Virus record (IMG/VR): IMGVR_UViG_3300026184_000052
Location: 1-28,063 of that record
DNA length: 28,063 bases
From: a virus
Strand: one strand, 5' to 3'
This document shows, in pieces, positions 5,369 to 24,669 of this stretch. The notes under the pieces are model-generated. The model saw nothing but the letters and a program-made list of their open reading frames with translations, did not search any database and had not been told where the DNA came from. The position numbers and the translations under genes were made by a program. Within the stretch, counting starts at the first letter, position 1; each line of letters opens with the position of its first letter.

Positions 5369-5896
5369 TTACCCGTTATGGATCAAATCCTTCCAATGCA
5401 CGCCCGGCTCCTGGATGTGCGGGTATTCCCGCTTGGCCGGCGACCACTCACCGGCCCAGTCAAAGCCGGCCAGCTGCGCGAGCTCGCCATAACCCACCCA
5501 CAATGAGGCCTCGTTCACGTCCTCGGTGCCGGGGTCGTCCAGCGTGCGCCACACCGGCTTGCCATCGCGCATCGGCACGCCGTCGATGGCATAGCCATAG
5601 TTATGCATCGATTGCCCGGGCCCGGCCCAGGTCACGATATGCCGGCCATACTGCGGGCCGACATCCATCAACAGCTCCGCCAGGTCCGGCCGGTGGTAAA
5701 CCTTGCGCAGCTCCAGGGCCTTGTGCTCGATCTCCTGCAGGCTGCGCCCATTGCGAAACAGCCGCGCCTGCTCCTCCTCCGAGCGGTGCATGCAATAGAA
5801 CAGCACATCGAGCCCCCGCTGAGTGAGCAGGTGCTGCAGGTGCTGCAACCGCTCGCGGGTGCGTTCCTTCAGGGAGTTGGGATCGCGGCTTGGCAT
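5369..5896 (-). CDS. Endolysin, M15-family D-Ala-D-Ala / L-Ala-D-Glu peptidase
   Basis: A 175-aa zinc peptidase. Metal-binding motif SMHNYGYAID gives H98 and D105, and REYPHIQ gives H160; the FDWAGEW segment places the likely catalytic acid near residue 150. This is the layout of VanY/T5-endolysin peptidases. No signal peptide is seen, so export would depend on the holin encoded immediately downstream. GGAG lies 6 nt before ATG inside the end of the upstream gene. The length is normal for a single-domain endolysin with no cell wall binding module. Confidence 0.9.
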   Translation of the reverse strand: MPSRDPNSLKERTRERLQHLQHLLTQRGLDVLFYCMHRSEEEQARLFRNGRSLQEIEHKALELRKVYHRPDLAELLMDVGPQYGRHIVTWAGPGQSMHNYGYAIDGVPMRDGKPVWRTLDDPGTEDVNEASLWVGYGELAQLAGFDWAGEWSPAKREYPHIQEPGVHWKDLIHNG

Positions 5897-5899
5897 GCG

Positions 5900-6424
5900 C
5901 TACTCCGCGGCGTTGACGGCCTGCTCGTGGCGGCGCTCGATCTCCGCGTTGACCAGCGCGATCTTGCCCTCGTCGCCCTGGAACACATCGAGCTGCGCGA
6001 TGAGCTCCTCGTCGCCCATCGTCTGCAACAGCGCCACCAGCTCGTCGGTCTCGGTGGCCTCCTGGGCGCGGTTCAAACGATCCTCGGCGAAGGCCTCCAT
6101 CAGGTTCTTGCGCGGTTTAGCCTTGGCGCCCTCGGCCGCCTCGAGCTTCTCCAGCTGCGCCACGGTAAGGCCTGGCAGCTTGCCCTTGATGTCGTTAATG
6201 CTGTTGTCCAGCAGGCTCAACAGCTGGGTGTCGTCGTCCTGTTGTGGTGGCGCCACCAAGGTCGGGGCCTTGGGTTTGCCATCCGGTCGAGGGGAACACT
6301 TATCATAGTGCTTGAAGGGCACCAGGTCGGAGTCGACCTCCCGGGTATCACCGGGGCGGATCATCTTGTTGCCGATATGGATCGCCTTCGCGGTGTCGTT
6401 ATAAAGCGCGACAATCTTGCCCAT
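5900..6424 (-). CDS. Hypothetical structural-operon protein with LEM/HeH-like segment
   Basis: A 174-aa protein with a strong ribosome binding site (GGAGG, 7 nt before ATG). The N-terminus (ALYNDTAKAIHIGNKMIRPG) resembles the small beta domain of DUF7210-like proteins. A Pro/Gln-rich linker follows, then a helix-turn-helix-like segment (LPGLTVAQLEKLEAAEG) that looks like HeH/LEM helices found in phage head-completion proteins, and an acidic helical tail. It lies just after the capsid gene behind a strong terminator. A role in head decoration or completion is possible but not shown. Confidence 0.6.
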   Translation of the reverse strand: MGKIVALYNDTAKAIHIGNKMIRPGDTREVDSDLVPFKHYDKCSPRPDGKPKAPTLVAPPQQDDDTQLLSLLDNSINDIKGKLPGLTVAQLEKLEAAEGAKAKPRKNLMEAFAEDRLNRAQEATETDELVALLQTMGDEELIAQLDVFQGDEGKIALVNAEIERRHEQAVNAAE

Positions 6425-6450
6425 GAGATAACCTCCAATATTTGAATGAA

Positions 6451-6486
6451 TAAAACCCGCCGGCCATCGATGACGCGGCCGGCGGG
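6451..6486 (-). terminator. Strong intrinsic terminator after the capsid gene
   Basis: On the minus strand CCCGCCGGCC and GGCCGGCGGG form a perfect 10-bp stem around an 11-nt loop, followed directly by TTTTATT. It lies between the capsid stop (6497) and the ribosome binding site of the next gene, so genes to the left need readthrough, antitermination or their own promoter. Confidence 0.85.
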
Positions 6487-6496
6487 ATTACAGCCT

Positions 6497-9082
6497 TTAG
6501 CGATTGCTCGCGCTGTAGGCAATGACGGAGGTGAAGCGATTGCGGATCGGATCGGGCACCTTGATGGCGCTGTATTCCTCACCATAGGCCTGCTTTTGCC
6601 CCGTGGGCTTGCCGGTGCTTGAGTCCACCGCCTCAAACGGCTGCCCCGTCATAAAGGGCTTGGCGATGGTGTAGGCGCAGGTCCCGCGCTGACCCAGGAG
6701 GATCCGCTCGTCGCCCAGGTCGGATCCCGGGACATCCGAGCTAAACGCCGGGATGCCCTTCACCATCTGCAGGTTCCCCATGCTCGTGGTGTCGGTGCCG
6801 TTCTTCTTGCTCTGCGCCTCGAACTGCCGGGCATTGGTGCAGGTGTCGTTGAGTGTGGCGCTCATCAACTGGAAATCCGGCTCAACGAAACGATCCGACA
6901 TCATCGTCGCCTTGCGGCCACCGATGGCGCGTAGCAGGCCATTGAGGTGCAGATCCAGATCGGTGCTGCCGTTGTCGGTGTCGAATTTGACGATGTTGGT
7001 CGCATAGTCATAGCTGATGGTATCGGCGCTGGCGGTGGAGCTCGGGGTCACCGGAGAGCCGGTTTGATCCACGAACTGCACATAACCCAGGTTGTAACTG
7101 GTCACCCGGTAATAGGTGCCCGCTGACTGGGTGCCGGTGCCGTCGTACTCGCTGATCGCCGAACCGTTGAGCTTGACCGTGATCGGGTTCGACTCCGAAC
7201 CGATGGCGTTGCCCTCCAGGTCGCGATTCTGATGCGGCCGCACGATGGGGAACTGGGCGGTCTTGATGGTGCTGGTGGCGCCATCCAGCTGCGCGTCCAG
7301 GTCCTCGTCGGTAATGGAGGCCGCCAGGTAGGAGTCCGCGGCCCGCTGCATCGTGTTGAGGATGGCGATGGTCAGCAGCTCGCGCATATAGCGGGAGTTG
7401 GTGGCCACGTTGCGGGCCAGGGCATCCCAGTCGATGCGGCTGGCGCGCGAGAAGTGGATCACCTCGTTGCTCAACAGATAGGCCAGCTTGCGGGCCACGA
7501 TGTAGGCGGTGTCCATCTTCTGCTGCACGCTGGCGCGGTGGATGGGTTGGCCTTCATACACGACGCCCTGGTTATACACGGCCGATACGTCGCGCAGCTC
7601 ATAGGGGATCTGTGTGGTCGCCTGCGCCTGCGGGTCGGTCATGGTATTGACCAGCTGCAACACGTCGAGATTGGCCAGCACCTCGCGAATCACCGCACGT
7701 TGCACGCCCACCGGCAGGTTGGTGTCGCCCACGCCGGTGGTGCCGCCCGCCAGCATCTTGTGCTCGTTGACCAGGCGCGGGGCGTTGAGCTTGTCGAACT
7801 CGGCCAGCACCTTGGTGATGAAGGGGGAGTCCTTCTCGGGCACCGCGATCTCGCCGGAATGAAAAGCGGAGGTCTCGCGCAGGTGCTTCTGGTAGGTCTC
7901 CGCCAGCGACTTGATCTCGTTTTGATGGCTGACCTCGATATGAACATGACCGCCCGGGCCCTGGCCCTCGAAGGCCATGTCGGCGAGTTTCTTCTGCGCC
8001 ACCATGGCGTTGCCGATATCGATCTGATGCTGGGCCAGCTTGGTGACCTGCTCCTCGGTCATCTCGGCGGTAATGAGATCGGAGGAGTCGAGCTTCTTGC
8101 GTTGATCCTCGCTCAGATCACCGAGGCCCTCGGCCTCGTCGAGCAGTTTCTTGAACTTATCGACATTGGCCTGGCGATTCTCCTCGAGCTTCTTGCGCTC
8201 CTCGGCCTCCTGGGTGCGCATGTCGGCCATCAGTTTCTTGACCTGCTCCTCGCTCATGCCGCCCTGGGCGGGGTTAACCGAAAGGTTAATCACGGGATCC
8301 TTGCCTTCGTTGCCGTCCTCGGCGAGTTGTTTGGCCAGGTTCTCGCCCGACTCGATAAAACTCTCCATCAGGGCTTTCTGTTGATCCTCATCCGCCAGGG
8401 TCTTGCCGGTCTTTTCAAAGCCGGCCACCAGCTGATCGATGATGCCCTGGCTGAGCTTTTTCTCTGCCAGGCGCTTGCGCAACGTGGTAATAAACTTTTC
8501 CATCGTTTTCTCCAATTCGTTTTTGATCTGGTTCGTGACGCGGTCGCTCAGATAGGTGGGGGCATCGCCGAGGCCATCCTCGGACAGTTGCACCGGGTCC
8601 AGGCGCTTGATAACGGGGCGCGTCGTCAGGGCCGCCCCCAGCAGGGTGGGGCCGTGAATTTTGCGATCCTCATTGTCCTGCCAGTTCTCGTGAAACTCTG
8701 CGGACAGGTAAATAAATCCCTTTTGTGTGATGGATTCGATCCCATAGTCCGTGAGCTCCACCTCCCCCCGTAACTTGTTCCCATCCAGGAAAAGCCGGGT
8801 AAAGTAACCGGCGGCGCCATTGCCAGGATTGTGCGCGACATCCAGCGCGACCCGTTGGCCGAACACGCCGGCCTCAAAGTTGCGCACCATCGACAGCAGC
8901 ATCGGGCGCGTGATGTCGAACTCGCCATACCGCGGATCGTAGAAAGTCCCCGTCCGGGTCACCGTCACCACCGCGGTGCGTTTGCCTTGCGCCAGCGTCC
9001 GCGCGTCCACGTGGTCGCTGTAAAAGCGCCTCACCCCATCCAGGGTGTTGCTGTCGAGTTTAAAATGTCGCGCTGCTTGCAT
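6497..9082 (-). CDS. Fused prohead protease, scaffold and major capsid protein
   Basis: An 861-aa polyprotein. I start it at ATG 9082 because GGGAG lies 6 nt upstream; a 19-codon longer form would begin inside a terminator hairpin. Residues 1-165 are a Mu gpI-like phage protease: H84 in ALDVAHNPG, S127 in FIYLSAEFHENW, and the GPTLLGAALTTRPVI signature. Residues about 195-375 are a charged coiled-coil scaffold. Residues about 385-861 are an HK97-like capsid domain, from HQNEIKSLAETYQKH through NLPVGVQRAVIREVLANLDV to the C-terminal RNRFTSVIAYSAS. These parts are usually separate genes. A good internal ribosome binding site precedes Met194, so a shorter scaffold-capsid product without the protease is likely, as with nested lambda C/Nu3. 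A terminator follows. Confidence 0.88.
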   Translation of the reverse strand: MQAARHFKLDSNTLDGVRRFYSDHVDARTLAQGKRTAVVTVTRTGTFYDPRYGEFDITRPMLLSMVRNFEAGVFGQRVALDVAHNPGNGAAGYFTRLFLDGNKLRGEVELTDYGIESITQKGFIYLSAEFHENWQDNEDRKIHGPTLLGAALTTRPVIKRLDPVQLSEDGLGDAPTYLSDRVTNQIKNELEKTMEKFITTLRKRLAEKKLSQGIIDQLVAGFEKTGKTLADEDQQKALMESFIESGENLAKQLAEDGNEGKDPVINLSVNPAQGGMSEEQVKKLMADMRTQEAEERKKLEENRQANVDKFKKLLDEAEGLGDLSEDQRKKLDSSDLITAEMTEEQVTKLAQHQIDIGNAMVAQKKLADMAFEGQGPGGHVHIEVSHQNEIKSLAETYQKHLRETSAFHSGEIAVPEKDSPFITKVLAEFDKLNAPRLVNEHKMLAGGTTGVGDTNLPVGVQRAVIREVLANLDVLQLVNTMTDPQAQATTQIPYELRDVSAVYNQGVVYEGQPIHRASVQQKMDTAYIVARKLAYLLSNEVIHFSRASRIDWDALARNVATNSRYMRELLTIAILNTMQRAADSYLAASITDEDLDAQLDGATSTIKTAQFPIVRPHQNRDLEGNAIGSESNPITVKLNGSAISEYDGTGTQSAGTYYRVTSYNLGYVQFVDQTGSPVTPSSTASADTISYDYATNIVKFDTDNGSTDLDLHLNGLLRAIGGRKATMMSDRFVEPDFQLMSATLNDTCTNARQFEAQSKKNGTDTTSMGNLQMVKGIPAFSSDVPGSDLGDERILLGQRGTCAYTIAKPFMTGQPFEAVDSSTGKPTGQKQAYGEEYSAIKVPDPIRNRFTSVIAYSASNR
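8501..8513 (-). promoter_or_regulatory. Internal ribosome binding site and start (Met194) in the capsid fusion gene
   Basis: GGAG at 8513-8510 lies 6 nt before an in-frame ATG (8503-8501), exactly at the boundary between the protease and the scaffold. Starting here would give a 668-aa scaffold-capsid protein. This is the position where a separate capsid gene would normally begin. Confidence 0.6.
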
Positions 9083-9096
9083 GTATCGCTCCCAAC

Positions 9097-9130
9097 AAAA
9101 AAGCCGGCGGCGCTTTCGCGCGGCCGGCTT
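9097..9130 (-). terminator. Intrinsic terminator just before the capsid fusion gene
   Basis: On the minus strand AAGCCGGC pairs with GCCGGCTT around an inner GCGC-GAAA-GCGC stem-loop with a single mismatch, followed by six T. It is the last part of the 104-bp repeat, and only about 14 nt remain between its T-tract and the capsid start, too little for a promoter. Confidence 0.85.
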
Positions 9131-9200
9131 GGTCACCATTTGCTCGCTCAGTCTGAACTCTAGCCCCCCACTAGAGACATAAACAGGGCCGGGGCTGTCA
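9097..9200 (-). repeat. 104-bp direct repeat, copy 1 (left border of accessory cassette)
   Basis: Nearly identical to 14424-14527 in the same orientation. Differences are one A/G change, a 3-nt indel with a neighbouring change, and three bases in the loop of a small CTCTAG/CTAGAG hairpin. It begins on the minus strand with the stop codon of the 106-aa gene (TGACAGCCCCGGCCCTG), continues through the hairpin and a GCGAGCAAATGG stretch, and ends in the terminator. Confidence 0.9.
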
Positions 9201-9518
9201 CTCTCCGACCACCATCAGCTGGATCGGGCTCTTGAGTAACTGATTCGCGCCAAACTGGGCGGACAGCTGCAGCGAATAGTCCCCGGCCTGATCGATATCA
9301 CCGGCGGCGGTGGTGTATGTGGCATATTGATTCGCGTTATAGGTCACCCCATCGACCACCAGGTCCTGGCCGCCGACCTGCAGGCCGTCGCTGGTTGTTT
9401 TTTGTATGCTCGACCCATCCGGCCGGCTAATGGTCAGGGTCAGGGCGGTAGCTAACGACAGGTCGTATGCCAGATCAATCACCACGATCTTGCCGTATTC
9501 GCCTTTCTGATAGGCCAT
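9198..9518 (-). CDS. Hypothetical beta-rich virion-type protein
   Basis: A 106-aa protein with GGGAG 6 nt before ATG. Alternating strands (KIVVIDLAYDLSLATALTLT, YSLQLSAQFGANQLLKSPIQ) and an AAGDIDQAGDYSLQ turn resemble the small beta-sandwich found at the N-terminus of BppU-like baseplate/fibre proteins. I cannot name a family. It is the last gene of the repeat-flanked cassette, and its TGA stop is the first base triplet of repeat copy 1. Confidence 0.65.
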   Translation of the reverse strand: MAYQKGEYGKIVVIDLAYDLSLATALTLTISRPDGSSIQKTTSDGLQVGGQDLVVDGVTYNANQYATYTTAAGDIDQAGDYSLQLSAQFGANQLLKSPIQLMVVGE

Positions 9519-9519
9519 C

Positions 9520-10806
9520 TCAGACTCCCGTAATGTTGGTCATCGGCGCGGTTAGGATCTCGTAGGCAACCACCGTTTGCACGCTGGAGGCGGTGACGGC
9601 CGAGACCGTAAGATTTATTCCGACATCCCCCGCGATGCTGTATTGACCGGCCACGCCGTATTGCATCGAGGCGGCTGGCGTCAACGACATGAGCGCGCTG
9701 CCTAGGAGGCTCTGATGCGTCGCATAATTCACCGAGCCGTTCACGCCCAGCGAGATAAGAGAGCCGCCGCTAATCGAGTGCTGCCCGGCCTGGCTCGCCT
9801 GCATTGTCGCGTTGACCGACATCTGCATGATGACGTCGGTCTGCATGTAATAATGGGATGCCTTGACCATCGTCGCCCCGGCGCCCAGCGTCAGGGATAC
9901 GGCCCCGGAAAAGGTGTTAATCACATTATATTGCAGCGTCGCCGACACATTGATTGTCGCCGAAACAGCGGCGGATATACTATGGTGCGATGATTTTGAT
10001 AACGTCCCGGAAGGGGTGACAGATAAATTTACATTGCCCGCGATACTATGCGCCCCGGGGGTTTGGAATAGCGCACCAAACCAGTCATTGTGCAGGGATT
10101 GATACTCAGTATCGGACAGCGGGCGGTTGAAGATCGCAATAAGATGATGCTTGCCGGGGAGGTTGCCGCTGCCGCTCAACCCGCCGATATATTGATAATC
10201 GCTGAAGCTGAAGGACCCGCCCGCCGCCGATCCCACGTTCGCCAATGAGCCGGACTCCAAACCGAACAGCACGTCCGAAGTGCCGCCATTTATCCAGTTG
10301 CCGGCGAACGAGAACTTGGTCGACAGATCAGAAGGCAGCGTCTGCGTCGAGCTCGACATCCGGTAGCCCGACCCGACGTACCACGTAATATAGTCGGTGT
10401 CATTCTTGCCGAAGAACGCGTTAGACCCCCCGTTGGCGATCAGGCCGTTGTACGCCCCACCCGCATCCATGCCGGCGCAGGCCGCGAACACACCGAAACC
10501 ACCTTGGCTTGTGCCGCCGGGCACCGTTTGCGCGGCTGAATGTCGGATGCCGTAAAAATTGTAAGTGCCGTTGGCTAATGTTTGAAAGTAATTAAAACTG
10601 GTTCCTTTCCAGGTTGCCTGCCCCACCACGACAGGATTATCAACGCTCATGTCGGCATTGCCGGCGTCGTCAGCCCAGGTATCAACACCGTTCCACGTTG
10701 AAAATTGACCAGACACCCACTCGCGCAGCGTCACGCCATCATCGTCGACCATGTAACAGGCGATCAGATCGGCGGCCAGCCCGGTGCTTTTTAACGTATA
10801 ACCCAT
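9520..10806 (-). CDS. LamG-like domain protein with seven tandem 22-residue repeats
   Basis: A 428-aa protein. Residues about 10-245 look like a concanavalin/LamG jelly roll: DLIACYMVDDDG opening, a WKGTSFNYFQ strand, and the typical closing LIAIFNRPLSDTEYQSLHND. Residues 252-408 are seven tandem units of 21-25 residues, each like (H/Q)HSI-G-(V)-L-V---. Such domains bind glycans, and repeats of this kind form shafts in phage fibres, so a receptor-binding or decoration protein is likely. GGAGG lies 10 nt before ATG. It sits 3 nt after the 886-aa gene, whose N-terminus carries one more copy of the repeat. Confidence 0.75.
   Translation of the reverse strand: MGYTLKSTGLAADLIACYMVDDDGVTLREWVSGQFSTWNGVDTWADDAGNADMSVDNPVVVGQATWKGTSFNYFQTLANGTYNFYGIRHSAAQTVPGGTSQGGFGVFAACAGMDAGGAYNGLIANGGSNAFFGKNDTDYITWYVGSGYRMSSSTQTLPSDLSTKFSFAGNWINGGTSDVLFGLESGSLANVGSAAGGSFSFSDYQYIGGLSGSGNLPGKHHLIAIFNRPLSDTEYQSLHNDWFGALFQTPGAHSIAGNVNLSVTPSGTLSKSSHHSISAAVSATINVSATLQYNVINTFSGAVSLTLGAGATMVKASHYYMQTDVIMQMSVNATMQASQAGQHSISGGSLISLGVNGSVNYATHQSLLGSALMSLTPAASMQYGVAGQYSIAGDVGINLTVSAVTASSVQTVVAYEILTAPMTNITGV
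9583..10053 (-). repeat. Tandem protein-coding repeats in the LamG gene
   Basis: Seven units start near residues 253, 275, 297, 318, 343, 364 and 389 (HSIAGNVNLSV, HSISAAVSATINV, NTFSGAVSLTLGA, HYYMQTDVIMQMSV, HSISGGSLISLGV, HQSLLGSALMSLTP, YSIAGDVGINLTV). Period is 21-25 residues with alternating hydrophobic residues. DNA-level identity is low, so the array is old or diversified. Confidence 0.75.
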
Positions 10807-10809
10807 TTT

Positions 10810-13470
10810 TTAAAGACCTCCGGCCGGCACCCTGTAGACCCAAACATTTTGATCGGTTGGGTTATTAATAACGGCAAAGGCCTTGATGCTGCTGATATAA
10901 CGGAAGCGGCCATAGGTCCCTCGCGCGCCCACGGCGCTCGGCGTTGCCCCGCCGGCGCCGTTCGTGACCTCGACCCACGTCCATGACGCATTGGCGTTCA
11001 GCGATCCATCCGGATTGCGGTAGTCGGCTGGCGGGTCCAGTTTGTAAATCGCAGACCCACCGTTATAGCCCACCAGGGTCTTGCCAACCGGCTCGTATTC
11101 AAATCCGATATTTGTCGCTGTCTTTAGCGGCCCGGTATAGTTCGTCGTGATCTCCACCAGATCCCCGGCGCGGCCGTTGTCGGTATCGATGTCCCATACC
11201 ACGAGGCGATCAGACCCAACATCATGCACCAGCATGATACGGCGCCCAGGGTCGAGCGTTATCCCGTCCGTGTTGTAATCGGTTCCGGAGCTTGATGTGT
11301 TGTATGGCCCGGACCATGTATTTGTCTGCGGATTGAAGCTCCAGAGCGTGTCCGCCTGGCGCAGCTTCACACACCAAACCAGTCCGGTATACGGGTCATA
11401 TTCACAGCCACCTGCCGGCGCGGCGATATCCGGAAAATTCGGGTGCGTCCCTTCGGCGAGATAGCTGCCGCCGACATCGGCCTCAGAGTTGAACTTAAAC
11501 GCCGCGACTTCGCTGGAGCTGACCACGCCGCTATCGGTGACCCTCCACACGTAGGCGCGTCTCGGGGCAAATAGCTCCCTACCCACACCGCCGCCCAGGT
11601 CAGGGATGTAACACATGTTGTCATACATGTGCGCCGATGAAGGCTTGCCGTCCGAGTAGTAATGCTTGTTGAACTCGTTCTGCCAGTTGGTGATGACGGT
11701 CTCTCCGGCCAACGCCGTACCTTTATGTGATGGCGGATCGTATTTACTACCTCCCTGACCGTCGCTAGCATTACCGAACCAGTTCCACTTAGGATTCTCA
11801 GACGTGAAGGGGCCAAACTCGAATATCGTATTCTGTTGGCTACCATGGTGGCCGCCGCAAAAACCAATCACCAAATAATTATCGCGCGCAACCGCGCCAT
11901 TCCAATTTTCTATCACCCCGTCGTGATAGGTCGCCGTCTCTGTCGAGAAGTCCCAATCGCCGGGATTGGCGAAGGCCGTCCAAGCCGTGTTGGATTCAGG
12001 GTCGACATCGCTCCACGGGTTGCCTACGGCAACCCAGGTGCCTTCGTTGGCGCTGGTCAGCCAGGAGGGGTCGTTCGCATTGTATTCAATGGCCGGGTCG
12101 TTGGCACCGTTCTCGAACAGCCGCCACACGTACTGCAACTCTCCCCGATTACGCTTTAGCCATATCTGATTGCTCAGCCACTCGGTATCCATAAAGTGGT
12201 GAATTTCGTTACTCTGCGCAAGGGTCGATCCGTCATAGTCAAACTTGACCGCCTTAAAATGCTCAATGGCGGAAGTAATGAACGATGTATCGCCTGTCCA
12301 CTTAAACGCCACCATCAAAATGCCGATCAAATCGAGGGTGTATACGGGATCGATGCTGGCGTCGTTGCAGCTAAATCCATGAATAGGGTTCAGGTTAACG
12401 TCATGGCCGAACCATATCCCGGTGAAATTACATGGCGATAGCAGACCAAATTCCTGTATATAGCGGCCCATTTTTACCGCTTGATCTCGGATGGTCGCCC
12501 GCTTCGCGGTATCCGTAATCGTATGGTGCGCGTAATAGTAGGCATCCCCCAGCAGGCCGATGTGCAGCGGAATGATCACGCGGGAACCTGAGGCATACGC
12601 ATTGGCGCCTGCCCGGCTGTCCGTCTCCGAGGCGTTCAGGAAGTGCATCCCCGCGGCGCCGGCCGTGACGGTCATCTCCTCCCAGCCGGGCGACTGCAGC
12701 CACAAATCTAATACGGTGTCACGAAACGCGATATCGTTAACGTCGCCGGTTGCCTGGGCCAGTCGGGTCGCCGCGTACAACAATCGCACCGCGCGCCTCG
12801 GCTGTATCCCCGACATCGAATAACTGCCGGCAACAGGCATGTTTGTGCCGTCGCCCTTGTTGTAAACCCACCAGGCCTTGGCGTCTGCGACGATAGCCCG
12901 CGCGGCTGTGATCGCCGCGGAATTGCCGCCCGGGGTTTGCTCGTGGAGCGTGACCAGATCCCACGCCCACATGTGATCGAGCCCCCAGGATCCGTTGATA
13001 TCCGACTCGGCCTGATACCCGGTGCTGGTCTGGCGCTGATTGATCCAGTAATCGGCCCATGCGTCCGCGAAGCACTGATATTCAGCGTCGCCATAGCGGT
13101 CATACTGGTGCAGATACGTCCACAGGTCCGGCCCCTCTGAATCGTAATGCACATCGGGGTCGCCGATGGTAAACGGATTACCGCCACCCGGGCAGGTCTT
13201 TTGATAATAGGGCGTAAAATTCAGATCGATGGGGTCGCCGGGGGTCACGCCAAATTGCGCCGAATTGGCGGACCAGTTGACCCACCCCTGCGCGACGTAG
13301 AAGTCCAATTCATCTTGAAGCGAGGGAAAGGCCGCCTCGGTCCCTATTGGCGAGTAAGTCTCAGCGAAGGCGAGGTTTGATGCGCTGACAGTAAAGGAAA
13401 GGGAGGCCGCGCCGGCAATAGCGTAAGATGCCGGCGCGATCGCTTGGCTACCCTGGACCTTGACTCCCAT
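10810..13470 (-). CDS. Large virion-type protein: helical toroid domain plus kelch beta-propeller
   Basis: An 886-aa protein. Residues 15-40 (YAIAGAASLSFTVSAS) match the repeat unit of the neighbouring LamG protein. Residues about 60-480 contain paired helices (RRAVRLLYAATRLAQATGD, LHIGLLGDAYYYAHH, LDLIGILMVAFKWTGD) and many Trp, Asp and His residues, the look of an (alpha/alpha)6 carbohydrate-active toroid. From about residue 530 kelch-type blades appear (DNYLVIGFCGGHHGSQQNTI, CEYDPYTGLVWCVKL, LWSFNPQTNTWSGPYN). No signal peptide is needed for a virion protein. A polysaccharide-binding or -degrading surface protein is the best guess; I cannot assign catalytic residues or a glycoside hydrolase family. 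It has no collagen-like or beta-helix spike signature. Confidence 0.7.
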   Translation of the reverse strand: MGVKVQGSQAIAPASYAIAGAASLSFTVSASNLAFAETYSPIGTEAAFPSLQDELDFYVAQGWVNWSANSAQFGVTPGDPIDLNFTPYYQKTCPGGGNPFTIGDPDVHYDSEGPDLWTYLHQYDRYGDAEYQCFADAWADYWINQRQTSTGYQAESDINGSWGLDHMWAWDLVTLHEQTPGGNSAAITAARAIVADAKAWWVYNKGDGTNMPVAGSYSMSGIQPRRAVRLLYAATRLAQATGDVNDIAFRDTVLDLWLQSPGWEEMTVTAGAAGMHFLNASETDSRAGANAYASGSRVIIPLHIGLLGDAYYYAHHTITDTAKRATIRDQAVKMGRYIQEFGLLSPCNFTGIWFGHDVNLNPIHGFSCNDASIDPVYTLDLIGILMVAFKWTGDTSFITSAIEHFKAVKFDYDGSTLAQSNEIHHFMDTEWLSNQIWLKRNRGELQYVWRLFENGANDPAIEYNANDPSWLTSANEGTWVAVGNPWSDVDPESNTAWTAFANPGDWDFSTETATYHDGVIENWNGAVARDNYLVIGFCGGHHGSQQNTIFEFGPFTSENPKWNWFGNASDGQGGSKYDPPSHKGTALAGETVITNWQNEFNKHYYSDGKPSSAHMYDNMCYIPDLGGGVGRELFAPRRAYVWRVTDSGVVSSSEVAAFKFNSEADVGGSYLAEGTHPNFPDIAAPAGGCEYDPYTGLVWCVKLRQADTLWSFNPQTNTWSGPYNTSSSGTDYNTDGITLDPGRRIMLVHDVGSDRLVVWDIDTDNGRAGDLVEITTNYTGPLKTATNIGFEYEPVGKTLVGYNGGSAIYKLDPPADYRNPDGSLNANASWTWVEVTNGAGGATPSAVGARGTYGRFRYISSIKAFAVINNPTDQNVWVYRVPAGGL

Positions 13471-14423: not shown

Positions 14424-14459
14424 AAAAAAAAGCCGGCGGCGCTTTCGCGCGGCCGGCTT
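14424..14459 (-). terminator. Intrinsic terminator before the accessory cassette
   Basis: Same hairpin as at 9097-9130 (AAGCCGGC...GCCGGCTT with inner GCGC-GAAA-GCGC) followed on the minus strand by eight T. It would stop transcription coming from the portal/MuF genes before the cassette. Confidence 0.85.
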
Positions 14460-14527
14460 GGTCGCCATTTGCTCGCAGTATGAACTCTAGCCCCCTGGTA
14501 GAGACATAAACAGGGCCGGGGCTGTCA
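14424..14527 (-). repeat. 104-bp direct repeat, copy 2 (right border of accessory cassette)
   Basis: Copy of 9097-9200 in the same orientation. It starts with the TGA stop codon of the 62-aa zinc-ribbon gene and ends in the terminator ahead of the 82-aa gene, so both copies occupy a complete intergenic space. Confidence 0.9.
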
Positions 14528-14713: not shown

Positions 14714-14837
14714 CCATTTCCTTTCGCAGATCCTCGGTCTCTTTCTCCGGACCATAAAAAGATTCGATCGCCGGCGGCTTGGGCGGCGGCGGCAGGTCTT
14801 TCGGCGGCTTGTCCAGCTGTTTGTGTTTGTCGGTCAT
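14694..14837 (-). CDS. Small proline- and lysine-rich protein, 47 aa
   Basis: Starts with an ATGA overlap at the MuF stop (14837) and ends at a TAA (14694). The sequence is highly charged and proline-rich (KPPKDLPPPPKPPAIE) with an acidic/basic helix behind it. No family recognised. The tight coupling on both sides and the absence of conflicting frames support it as a real small gene. Confidence 0.6.
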   Translation of the reverse strand: MTDKHKQLDKPPKDLPPPPKPPAIESFYGPEKETEDLRKEMDDKQKQ

Positions 14838-16720
14838 TTGACGAACTTCGCCTCGTATTGCTGTTGAATGTAATCGCCGACCTTTTTGGCCAGCGGCCGC
14901 GGCGTCGGGTTGTTGCGGTATTCGCTCCAGGCCTCGGCGATAAACTCGGCGGCATTGGTGCGTGCGTAACGGCTAAGCTCGAGGCCATCCGGATCCCGCC
15001 GCAGCCAGTCCCGGAATAATCGCGTGATCTCCGGATCGCCGCGCGCCCCGACCAGCTTGTCGAGCTCGTGGCCGAGCTCATGATCAATTATAGACTTCAC
15101 GGAGTCCGCGCCCACCGGGTGGAAGCGCGTCTCCGTGGCCCGGCTGAGGGATTTTTTCAGTTTCGCCAGGTCGCTGCCCCATTTTTTGTTGATGGTCACC
15201 CCGGCGATCGGTGCCTCCGACATCGAATAGGCCCAGACATTACCGGGCACCCGCGGCTTGCTGACGAAACGCCGCGCCCATTTGCGCAGCTCATCGAGGG
15301 GGCGATCGGGGTAGCGCGCGCTCAATGCGGAGAGGTATTCGCCGACCTTTACATCATACCAGTGCCGGAAGGCGTTCTGGCTGGTGCCAATAAACTGCAG
15401 GCCGCGGCGCAGCTCCGGGAACTCGTTCAGGTGTTCAAATATAGCCTGATTCCATTGGTTGGCTGCCTCGACCTCGATGCCGGAATAATCCGCCACGTCG
15501 GCCAGGTCGTTGTCGGTTGCCCACTTGGAGGCCTCGCTGGTGGTCTTTGCGGGCTTGAACCCCGCCGAGGAAGGCAGCCGGGTGCGGTGCTTGGTGATAG
15601 GCGTCACCTGGTCGGTGCCCTCGTTACTGCCCCAGCTGGCGGGATCGAGGCCGCGTTTTTCATACTTCTGTCGCAGCACCTTCCAGGGGGTGGCGATCTC
15701 GTTTTCCTTGAGGATCCCCTGCTCGAGCGCGAAGCGTTTTTTACGCGAGCCGAGCACCTGCTCCTGCACCCCGGGCGGTTGCTTGTTCAGCCAGCCGATG
15801 CGGTCCTCCTTGCCGTCCTTGTCCGCCTGGGTGATCTCGTCTTTGAACACGATCTCGATATAGCTCAGCGTGTTGGGGTGCGCCGGCCAGGGGGTGCGGT
15901 TGCGGTCGGGGTACACGCCCGGGCCCAGGCCGTAGCGGTTCACATGGGCGTGCATGTCGCAGATATCCGGCTCCGGATGGCGCGGGCTGAGCAGGAATTT
16001 CCAGCCGCCGAAGTCGTCGATCGCCTGGCCGGCCATCATGTAGGCCTCGCCGTGGGCGCGGTTGAGCTCGGTGCGCATCAGCCGCAGGGCGTTGTCGCGC
16101 GGGTTGCGATCGCCGCGAAACAGCCCGCCCACCTGGCTGGCGATGGCGTCGGCATTGGCGGCGTTCATCTTCGATTGCAGATCCCGGCCCACCGTCTCGC
16201 CGCGGGCCATCAGATCGCTGGCGGCCTGGCTGGCGCCGTGGCCCTGGATGACCGAGCGTTGAATCGTTTCGCTGACCAGCCGCTTGGTGTGGTTGTCGAT
16301 GTTCCAGACCCGATCGGAGAGCTGCAGGCCGTCGGCGGCGACAAAGTTATTCACGAACCGCACCGCATCCTCCGCCGCGCGAGTGACGAAGCCGGGCGCA
16401 TCACTGAACGGCTGCGCCCCGATCTGCGCCGACTCCTGGAGGCCGCTTTGCAGCAGGTCGTCCCGCGACTGGCTGAGCTGATCGAGCCGGTTCTGCACCT
16501 GCCCCAGCAGTTGCTGCATCACCTCCAGGCGCACGCTGCCGTCGCTGCCCGCGTAGTGGCGGATCTGCGCCTGGATGTCGTCGATGGCCTGATTGTAAAT
16601 GCCGCTCAGCGCATCCAGCTGGCGCCGGTCCAGCCGATTGCCCGCCGTGCGCGCCGCCGCCGAGGCGCGCTTGATGCGGGCCTTGATCGCGGTGCGCAGG
16701 TTTTCGGCTGGGACGGCCAT
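14834..16720 (-). CDS. MuF-type head morphogenesis protein with C-terminal HExxH zincin domain
   Basis: A 628-aa protein directly abutting the portal stop. Residues about 1-200 are helical. Residues about 215-292 carry the SPP1 gp7/Mu F signature (LRLMRTELNRAHGEAYMMAG, then WKFLLSPRHPEPDICDMH and PWPAHPNTLSYIE); the usual closing CRC is lost. Residues about 400-628 form an added domain with HELGH at 547-551 and AAEFIAEAWSEY at about 590-600, a gluzincin-like HExxH plus downstream Glu. MuF proteins enter capsids in few copies and in some phages carry C-terminal effector domains injected with DNA. A host-acting or processing peptidase is inferred. ATGA overlap joins it to the 47-aa gene. Confidence 0.83.
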   Translation of the reverse strand: MAVPAENLRTAIKARIKRASAAARTAGNRLDRRQLDALSGIYNQAIDDIQAQIRHYAGSDGSVRLEVMQQLLGQVQNRLDQLSQSRDDLLQSGLQESAQIGAQPFSDAPGFVTRAAEDAVRFVNNFVAADGLQLSDRVWNIDNHTKRLVSETIQRSVIQGHGASQAASDLMARGETVGRDLQSKMNAANADAIASQVGGLFRGDRNPRDNALRLMRTELNRAHGEAYMMAGQAIDDFGGWKFLLSPRHPEPDICDMHAHVNRYGLGPGVYPDRNRTPWPAHPNTLSYIEIVFKDEITQADKDGKEDRIGWLNKQPPGVQEQVLGSRKKRFALEQGILKENEIATPWKVLRQKYEKRGLDPASWGSNEGTDQVTPITKHRTRLPSSAGFKPAKTTSEASKWATDNDLADVADYSGIEVEAANQWNQAIFEHLNEFPELRRGLQFIGTSQNAFRHWYDVKVGEYLSALSARYPDRPLDELRKWARRFVSKPRVPGNVWAYSMSEAPIAGVTINKKWGSDLAKLKKSLSRATETRFHPVGADSVKSIIDHELGHELDKLVGARGDPEITRLFRDWLRRDPDGLELSRYARTNAAEFIAEAWSEYRNNPTPRPLAKKVGDYIQQQYEAKFVK

Positions 16721-21292: not shown

Positions 21293-22909
21293 TCATGCCG
21301 CCCGGTGAAACCGCTCAGGCATCACCACCTCGAGCCGAGCGGTTCCCAGCAGGACGCGCCCGGGGAGCCATTCTGCCCTGCTATGAACCGCCCCGCCCCC
21401 GACAGCCCGCAGCACCTGGTCGGGTTGGTAGAAGATATCCACGGCATGATCCCCGACTTCGATTTTTTCAATAAACGACGACAAGAATGTCCTCACTTCC
21501 CGCGGGCGCGAGGTGTCCTGCAGCATCTGCTGGCAAATTGACTGCATCAGCTCCACATCCTCGTCTGATACAGGGATCTGCGGCGGGGTCTCCTGCTCGA
21601 GCTGGGCCAGGGAGGCCTCGAGTTCGCGAATACGGCCGTTATGTTCCTGCAGTCGCGGCTTGATGTCGGCCAGGTTTAGCTCGTCCGGGGTTGAGCTTTC
21701 CAGCAGGTCATAAAGTCGAGCGCGTTTCCGCCGGGCGACCTCGAGGGCCTGCTCGGTATCCTGGATCTTTCGCCGTTGCTGTTGCTGCCAGTCGCCAGCG
21801 ATGGCTCGCATCTCTGCAACAATCGATTGCAGCAGATCCGGGGTAAATATTCGCGATGCAATCTCCCCGAGCAGCCACTCGTCGAGCGCATCGGCAGGGA
21901 CCCGGCGGTTGCTGCACTCGCCATGCTTTTGTGCCGCCCTGCAGTTGTAATAGCTGTATCGTTTGTTGCGCCCTTTGGCGGTTTCGATCTGCAGGCTCGC
22001 GCCACATCGTCCGCATTTCAGCATGCCGGTGAACAGGTGCTCGCTGTTATGTGCTCCATGAGCGGCCGCGTCGGCGTCGGTATCCATCAGGCGCTGAATC
22101 GCGTCCCATTTTTCGGTGGCGATGATCGGCTCGTGGCTATCGACGATGATCCAGTCCTCAAAGCTGCGCCGGCGGGATAGCTTGCGATCTTTTTTGTTAA
22201 ATACGGTTTGCCCTATCACCGCCCTATTGCGTAACAGGTAGGTGATGGTCGACTTGTTCCATTTCTTGCCGCGGTTCGTTACGCCCTCGCGGTTGATGAT
22301 GGTCGCGATTGTTTTGGCGCCGTGGCCTTGCAGCCGCAGGGCGAAGATGCGCTCCACCACCACCGCCTCCGAAGGCTCTATCTGCAGTCGTTTGCGCTTA
22401 TTGTCATCCGCCGCCGGCACGGCTTTATAACCAAACGGCGCGCGCCCTCCGTTGAAATATCCCGCCTTTGCATTTTTGATCATGCTGCGCTTGGTGTCCG
22501 CTGAGGTCTTTCGGCTCTTGAGTTCATCGGTGAGCTGGTAAACCGTCTCGAGAATAAAACCGCTGTCGGTCTCCGGGTCGATGTCCACCGTGAGATATTC
22601 GATCCTGGTGCCGGCATTGCGCAGCCGGAACCTGTTAAGTGGCCCATTGATATGGTCGCGGCTAAATCTAGCTGTATCCCACGTTATGAAATAATCGATC
22701 TCGTTTACTTCGCAATAGGTGATGGCCTCCTCGAACTCCGGCCTGTTGCCATACCACGCGGAGCGGCCAGGCTCGACAAATTCCCTCACCACTTTGGCCT
22801 CGAGCTGCGCCGCCTTTTCGCGGGAGGCCTCCAGCTGGGCCGGAATTGATAGATCCTTCTCGGCCTGCTTTTTATCGCTGACCCGGGCGTAAATAACAGC
22901 GGTTTTCAT
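21293..22909 (-). CDS. Large serine recombinase (integrase/resolvase family)
   Basis: A 538-aa protein. The catalytic domain has nucleophile S11 in YARVSDKKQ with R9, and the FITWDTARFSRD motif (R81, R84). The recombinase domain follows (RAPFGYKAVP, GHGAKTIATIINREGVTNRG). A zinc ribbon has C299, C302, C323 and C332 (LKCGRCGASL, YYNCRAA, GECSNRR). A long coiled coil runs about 370-460 (EVARRKRARLYDLLESS, RIRELEASLAQLEQE). This is the full layout of phage large serine integrases, and nothing looks broken. Its start overlaps the Mor-like regulator stop as ATGA, so the two are cotranslated. It carries out site-specific attP/attB recombination or, less likely, inversion or resolution. Confidence 0.92.
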   Translation of the reverse strand: MKTAVIYARVSDKKQAEKDLSIPAQLEASREKAAQLEAKVVREFVEPGRSAWYGNRPEFEEAITYCEVNEIDYFITWDTARFSRDHINGPLNRFRLRNAGTRIEYLTVDIDPETDSGFILETVYQLTDELKSRKTSADTKRSMIKNAKAGYFNGGRAPFGYKAVPAADDNKRKRLQIEPSEAVVVERIFALRLQGHGAKTIATIINREGVTNRGKKWNKSTITYLLRNRAVIGQTVFNKKDRKLSRRRSFEDWIIVDSHEPIIATEKWDAIQRLMDTDADAAAHGAHNSEHLFTGMLKCGRCGASLQIETAKGRNKRYSYYNCRAAQKHGECSNRRVPADALDEWLLGEIASRIFTPDLLQSIVAEMRAIAGDWQQQQRRKIQDTEQALEVARRKRARLYDLLESSTPDELNLADIKPRLQEHNGRIRELEASLAQLEQETPPQIPVSDEDVELMQSICQQMLQDTSRPREVRTFLSSFIEKIEVGDHAVDIFYQPDQVLRAVGGGAVHSRAEWLPGRVLLGTARLEVVMPERFHRAA

Positions 22910-23661: not shown

Positions 23662-24669
23662 TTATTTGCCACGGCTTGCGAGCTCCTTGGCGATGTCGCT
23701 GGTCGGAGTCTTGATGCTGCTCAAGGGGTTGGCCCGGGCGATCTCCTTGGTCAGCTTGCGCATGGCCAGGTGGGTATAGATGGCCGAGGTGTTGGCGTCG
23801 GCATGGCCCAGCAGCATCTGCTTAATGGCGTCCTGTACGTCATGCTCTGCCAGCTCGGTGCCGTACAGGTGGCGCAGGGCATGGGGGTGGGCCTTGTTCC
23901 TCGGGAGTCCGGCCTGTTTGGCATATTTAACAAACATGTCGCGGATGCTGGTCTCCGACAGGCGGCGGGCCTCGCCATGGTATTCGTGCTCTTTCACATT
24001 ACGGTTGCGGGTCGAGACAAACAGCACCTTCTCGCCATTAGGGAGCGTGCGGTCTATTTGCTTAAGCTCAGGGTGAGCCAGGTAGGCCCGAAGGATCAGG
24101 CGGGCCTCATGGGGAACCGGTAGCAGCCGCTCCTTTCCGCCCTTCTCCAGCACTCGAATAATAAGCCACTCCTGGCCCTCCACCTTCGTGAACACCAGAT
24201 TGCCCTCGTTCAGGGCGCTGAGGCCACCGATGCGCATGCCAGTACCGGCGAACAGCATCAGGATGCAGGTGTCACGCAGCCCGGCGAGTGTCTCCAGCCC
24301 TGGCGCCATGATCAGCTTGCCGGCCTCCTGCAGCTCCAGCGGCACCGGCAGCTTTTGCCCCACCTTGGGATAGGGCAGCTCCTCGGCCGGGTTGGTTTTG
24401 ACCAGCTTCTCCTTGGCTGCAAATTGGAAAAAGCCGCGTAATGCAGCCACCAGGGGGATCCTGGCTCGAGGCGTAAGGCCCTGTTCGTGGGCAACCATGC
24501 CCGAGAACTGCTCCAGCTGCTCCCTGGTGACATCGAGCAGGTCCGCGCCCTGCTCTTTCGCCCAGGCCTCGAGGCGATTCAGGAACCCTCGATACTTGTG
24601 GATCGTCCTGGGGCTGCGGCCCTTGTTGTATTGCAGATTGTTTAAAAATTGCTCTATTTCGGGGCGCAT
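23662..24669 (-). CDS. Tyrosine recombinase (XerC/D-like integrase)
   Basis: A 335-aa protein with GGAGAG just before ATG. The N-terminal SAM-like DNA-binding domain spans about 1-95 (RSPRTIHKYRGFLNRLEAWA). The catalytic domain has R146 (GTGMRIGGLSAL), a beta-hairpin lysine near 176-179 (EKGGKERLLPV), H263 and R266 (HPHALRHLYGT), H289 (LLGHADANTSAIYTHL) and nucleophile Y298. All are intact. Length and lack of an arm-binding zinc domain are like XerC/D and XerC-like phage recombinases used for integration or for dimer resolution of a plasmid-like genome. It is flanked upstream by an iteron cluster. Confidence 0.92.
   Translation of the reverse strand: MRPEIEQFLNNLQYNKGRSPRTIHKYRGFLNRLEAWAKEQGADLLDVTREQLEQFSGMVAHEQGLTPRARIPLVAALRGFFQFAAKEKLVKTNPAEELPYPKVGQKLPVPLELQEAGKLIMAPGLETLAGLRDTCILMLFAGTGMRIGGLSALNEGNLVFTKVEGQEWLIIRVLEKGGKERLLPVPHEARLILRAYLAHPELKQIDRTLPNGEKVLFVSTRNRNVKEHEYHGEARRLSETSIRDMFVKYAKQAGLPRNKAHPHALRHLYGTELAEHDVQDAIKQMLLGHADANTSAIYTHLAMRKLTKEIARANPLSSIKTPTSDIAKELASRGK

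Follow-up and report, generated by a model that had tools for sequence, protein, structure and literature searches.

How one gene can supply few copies of a head maturation protease and many copies of a shell protein is the question raised by a locus in the stretch of DNA analysed here (28,063 nucleotides, hereafter the window), a metagenome-derived 28-kb virus record from IMG/VR. The window harbors a fused protease-scaffold-capsid gene at positions 6497 to 9082 on the minus strand.

The fused gene and its surroundings

The fused gene (ATG 9082-9080, stop 6499-6497) is an unbroken frame of 861 codons with zero internal stops, and the coordinates of the single frame without a separating stop that had been read from the sequence are correct. 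The mechanical open frame opens upstream of this ATG, at 9139. The full-length start is preceded by a Shine-Dalgarno sequence (SD, GGGAG, 9089 to 9093, minus strand) with a pairing energy of -6.5 kcal/mol. Tail, neck and lysis genes are located on one side of the gene, and candidates for portal, head-morphogenesis and terminase genes on the other, all on the same strand.

Several gene products encoded nearby are not assigned to any Pfam family. Three genes of 886, 428 and 106 codons (9198-13470), between the head-morphogenesis region and the fused gene, gave no Pfam match. The same applies to the extra C-terminal part of the MuF-like head-morphogenesis protein (14834-16720), which contains an HELGH motif as in zinc metallopeptidases. 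A large serine recombinase (21293-22909) and what is, by its sequence, a tyrosine recombinase (23662-24669) are encoded close together on the same strand.

Protease, scaffold and capsid parts

The protease domain (residues 34-166; 8585 to 8983, minus strand) is, judged by sequence comparison, a Mu gpI-type protease. The PHROGs family of head maturation proteases, phrog_328, matched residues 63-355 of the window protein (4.1e-13), while capsid-type families matched further on and more weakly. Pfam gave nothing convincing and no PF10123 match (Mu-like prophage I protein) for the window protein alone; PF10123 was found above the cut-off in four relatives with 40-56% identity to the window protein over the whole length. 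Searches of NCBIfam and of PDB sequences with the window protein returned nothing relevant. Residues H84 (codon 8833-8831) and S127 (codon 8704-8702), both on the minus strand, do not vary in any of the 81 aligned unbroken sequences, which include the window, and both are also aligned in Mu gpI.

In a structure model of the whole protein built from 39 aligned homologues (mean pLDDT 78), the protease (about 34-166) is followed by long helices (180-368), a low-confidence linker (370-384, pLDDT <50) and a large last part (386-861). Modelled alone (pLDDT 92), the protease was closest to the VZV protease (Z 10.3, 110 aligned, 2.7 A) and to T4 gp21 (Z 9.0), with the next unrelated fold at Z 4.8, and Foldseek likewise assigned the domain to the herpesvirus/T4 gp21 protease fold (E 1.3e-3). 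The scaffold-like helical region (residues 194-368; 7979 to 8503, minus strand) takes the position of Mu Z. Downstream of the linker (residues 369-384; 7931 to 7978, minus strand), the C-terminal part (residues 385-861; 6500 to 7930, minus strand) is, according to the model, an HK97-fold major capsid protein: residues from about 457 to 858 matched the HRP29 procapsid (Z 17.5) and HK97 prohead II (Z 14.2), and Foldseek retrieved HK97-fold capsids (E 2.2e-8), all of these fold searches being lists of neighbours that exclude no family. The sequence-only reading had described three head functions in one frame with intact protease residues, and it is backed by the homologues, the folds, the comparison with Mu I/Z and the invariance of both residues.

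The capsid part contains an insertion at about residues 612-705 (7249-6968, minus strand), which has a weak similarity (E 7e-4) to a domain in the tail tube protein of the same phage (2090-2842). In the more distant relative Virus Rctr41k, the capsid insertion scores above the curated cut-off for tail tube families.

Distribution of the fusion

In viral contigs, phage records and bacterial genomes, 81 homologous frames with this organization were found, which share about 36-59% identity with the window protein. Nearly all of them are unbroken, a few being cut by contig ends; the homologues in L086, L088 and L098 are interrupted. The homologue in L042 is collinear except for an in-frame TAG (5682-5684) in its scaffold region, past the nested start described below. 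Named hosts of the fused gene are mostly Burkholderiales, besides other Proteobacteria, and the fusion is present in cultured bacteria, e.g. Pseudacidovorax intermedius DSM 21352, as well as in the isolate Microcystis phage yong1. The fused gene of phage yong1 (L005, 7983-10529) is annotated as hypothetical and a neighbouring ORF of 78 codons is called major head protein; the capsid of this phage is probably mislabelled in its annotation.

Two further arrangements were encountered. In the Mu-I-type relatives L048-L057, protease and scaffold share a gene of their own (335-471 codons). An ORF of about 125-140 aa comes next, and in nine of the ten an ORF of about 304-352 aa occupies the position of a putative capsid gene. 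An interpretation of these loci as broken fusions was rejected, the arrangement being separate and Mu-like. The gene in L120 (the same gene as L123 10322-11923, in reverse complement numbering) is a capsid-only relative; its start corresponds to about residue 383 of the window protein and is preceded by AGGAGG. No protease or scaffold gene is found nearby, the region lacks head genes recognisable as partners, and it may represent a decayed prophage.

A nested start at Met194

Directly after the protease domain, the frame contains Met194 (ATG 8503-8501), and GGAG (8510 to 8513, minus strand), an SD kept in the family, stands 6 nt before this codon. The nested frame opening here (6497 to 8503, minus strand) comprises 668 codons and encodes scaffold and capsid without the protease. 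Conservation of this start was counted in 70 non-redundant members (<85% identity, window included), which share ancestry, so that the counts are not independent trials. A start codon was found at most four codons from the Met194 site in all 70 (ATG in 65, GTG in 5); for comparison, 16.5% of 9-codon windows elsewhere hold an ATG. Among cultured strains, Acidovorax sp. sif1233 (L081) has ATG at the site and Pseudacidovorax intermedius DSM 21352 (L085) has GTG. The mean SD pairing energy was -6.3 kcal/mol for the ATG sites at 194, compared to -1.8 kcal/mol for 1118 other internal ATGs. When the preceding codons were shuffled synonymously according to each gene's own codon usage, the mean SD energy was -4.6 (sd of the mean 0.3), meaning that part of the signal stems from the amino acids, and none of 200 shuffles was as strong as the real sequences. 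A few members have a weak nested SD.

In a scan of all positions, a start codon together with an SD was present at residue 194 in 63 of 70 members; the next best place reached 18 of 70 and the background mean was 2.3. The peak at 194 was also seen in a previous scan of 45 sequences with stricter criteria. The base profile among the family members shows (A)GGAG at -14 to -10 before the nested start. A conserved capsid-only start was sought near residues 370-470, where the best place (452) was found in 18/70, far below the value at 194. Of 64 members, 43 have a nested SD that is stronger than the best SD of the main start. The window shows no such difference: the SD energies of its full-length and nested starts are equal (-6.5 and -6.4), and an excess of the shorter form is therefore not evident there.

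A reference point is provided by phage Mu. Its scaffold gene Z has an annotated RBS and begins at codon 179 of gene I, and 4 bases at the end of I overlap the capsid gene T. When Mu gpI is aligned with the family, the start of Z falls at Met194; the nested start thus corresponds to that of Mu Z. The sequence-only reading had singled out the internal GGAG-ATG as the place where a separate gene would begin, and a genuine nested start is supported by the start codon in all 70 members, by an SD that beats the shuffles and by the alignment with Z. Judged by these sequence comparisons, Met194 has the properties of a nested gene's start codon and very probably gives extra protease-free scaffold-capsid subunits.

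The most serious alternative is that only the full-length fusion is made, with the protease of each subunit cutting itself and the scaffold away, and that the signal at 194 simply follows from the protein sequence. The capsid could be freed by self-cleavage alone, and a Glu-rich stretch before Met194 favours GAG codons, as reflected in the average of the synonymous shuffles. We nevertheless regard this explanation as unlikely, since the start codon is retained throughout the 70 members despite register shifts, the real SD is stronger than every synonymous shuffle, and Mu has a distinct, annotated scaffold gene that begins at this position. The start codon moves by a few codons and alternates between ATG and GTG while the signal stays, a behaviour to be expected of a start signal rather than of a residue needed by the protein. 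As a second alternative, the internal SD-like sequence could delay translation between the protease and scaffold parts to help folding, with no initiation taking place. The location of the sequence at a domain boundary would suit such a pause, but a start codon is unnecessary for pausing, yet ATG or GTG is found in every member, and we consider this explanation very improbable. An assembly or sequencing artefact hiding a stop, conceivable for a metagenome-derived virus record, is refuted for the family by the recurrence of the same unbroken frame in many unrelated records, the cultured strain DSM 21352 and phage yong1 included, and has a negligible probability.

Hairpins upstream of the gene starts

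A terminator-like hairpin with a T-run (9097 to 9130, minus strand) ends 4 nt before the SD of the fused gene (z -3.7 for 9083-9139). Of 67 fused-gene members, 20 have a similar hairpin immediately upstream of the start, where 1.1 would be expected. Within the window, nearly identical terminator-like hairpins with a T-run are located at 9097-9142 and 14424-14471 (minus strand), each directly before the SD of a gene, and a third hairpin, at about 6447-6487, precedes the gene at 6424. Hairpin and start are too close together to accommodate a promoter between them. The hairpin might act in leader protection, antitermination or attenuation.

Proposed products and their processing

Initiation at Met1 would yield the protease-scaffold-capsid chain of 861 aa, and initiation at Met194 a scaffold-capsid chain of 668 aa with a common C-terminus. 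Both chains could join the procapsid via their capsid part, so that the protease would be covalently built in and its share set by the ratio of initiation at the two starts. The protease would then separate scaffold from capsid, with the linker around residues 370-385 as the most likely site of the cut. We infer that both products are made, and likewise which of them is in excess and where the chain is cut. The sequence-only reading had suggested that the mature capsid starts near residue 385, a position which fits the low-confidence linker of the model. The capsid-only gene of L120, whose region may be a decayed prophage, has its start at about this position behind a strong SD. A cleavage motif was sought near the linker, but none could be set; L366 and G378 are invariant there. 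Altogether, the two-start explanation, with full-length chains bringing the protease, Met194 chains serving as protease-free scaffold-capsid and a cut near the linker, is likely to be correct.

Two start codons on one message would be a simple answer to the question of how few proteases and many shell proteins are obtained from one gene. This points to a second gene product missed by annotation in dozens of phages and prophages, and makes a single-codon test of whether the protease dose controls head maturation possible.

Comparison with known systems

Named families of protease-capsid fusions already exist, and Mu-like phages are known to have nested scaffold starts. A fusion combined with a nested start, so conserved, seems to be undescribed; no description of protease-capsid fusions with an internal start was found in the open-access literature searched. 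The families NF045540 and NF045541 of NCBIfam (prohead protease/major capsid protein fusions, a name which appears in PMC13306010) combine protease and capsid in one frame like the fused gene described here, and in the few examples examined the protease boundary carries start signals. Their best-scoring examples, unlike the fused gene, carry a ClpP-like protease, and neither model matched the window.

More distant relatives with a common capsid end are Brevibacillus phage Emery (gp6), Virus Rctr41k ("putative phage capsid protein and protease") and proteins encoded on plasmids of Aneurinibacillus (pAT1) and Brevibacillus. The proteins of Emery, Rctr41k and Aneurinibacillus are encoded in a single frame with an SD and ATG or GTG after the protease, like the fused gene, whereas the protease detected in them is of the T4 gp21 type (S77) instead of the Mu type. 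In a small sample analysed without controls, an SD and a start codon were found close to the junction of protease and scaffold in fusions with other proteases: ClpP-like (L142, L143 and L144), by appearance S78-like (L107 and L129), by appearance gp21-like (L106 and L131, more weakly L132), and furthermore Emery, Rctr41k, Aneurinibacillus and Brevibacillus. Several of these genes hold further SD-start pairs besides the one at the boundary, so that the controls applied to the main family are needed before generality is claimed. It is a tentative possibility that fusions with unrelated or distantly related proteases (Mu gpI, T4 gp21/S77, ClpP-like and S78-like) all keep a nested boundary start, and that internal initiation dosing an attached protease is a general, unrecognised rule of head assembly.

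Parts of this organization are found in better-known viruses. The herpesvirus protease-scaffold genes encode a protease with the fold modelled for the fused gene; a shorter scaffold form with the same C-terminus has a transcript of its own, and the capsid is a distinct protein. The capsid of HK97 has the fold modelled for the capsid part described here; its N-terminal delta domain is a scaffold joined to the capsid chain, while the protease is encoded by a separate gene. A close counterpart is the I/Z/T region of Mu, which has a related protease, an in-frame scaffold start with an RBS after the protease, and the same order of protease, scaffold and capsid. Burkholderia phage KS10 has a Mu-like protease with a nested scaffold as well (gp28/gp29; PMC2628397). 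The difference is that the Mu capsid is encoded by a separate gene, whereas the frame of the fused gene runs on into the HK97-fold capsid, so that its nested product would be a scaffold-capsid protein.
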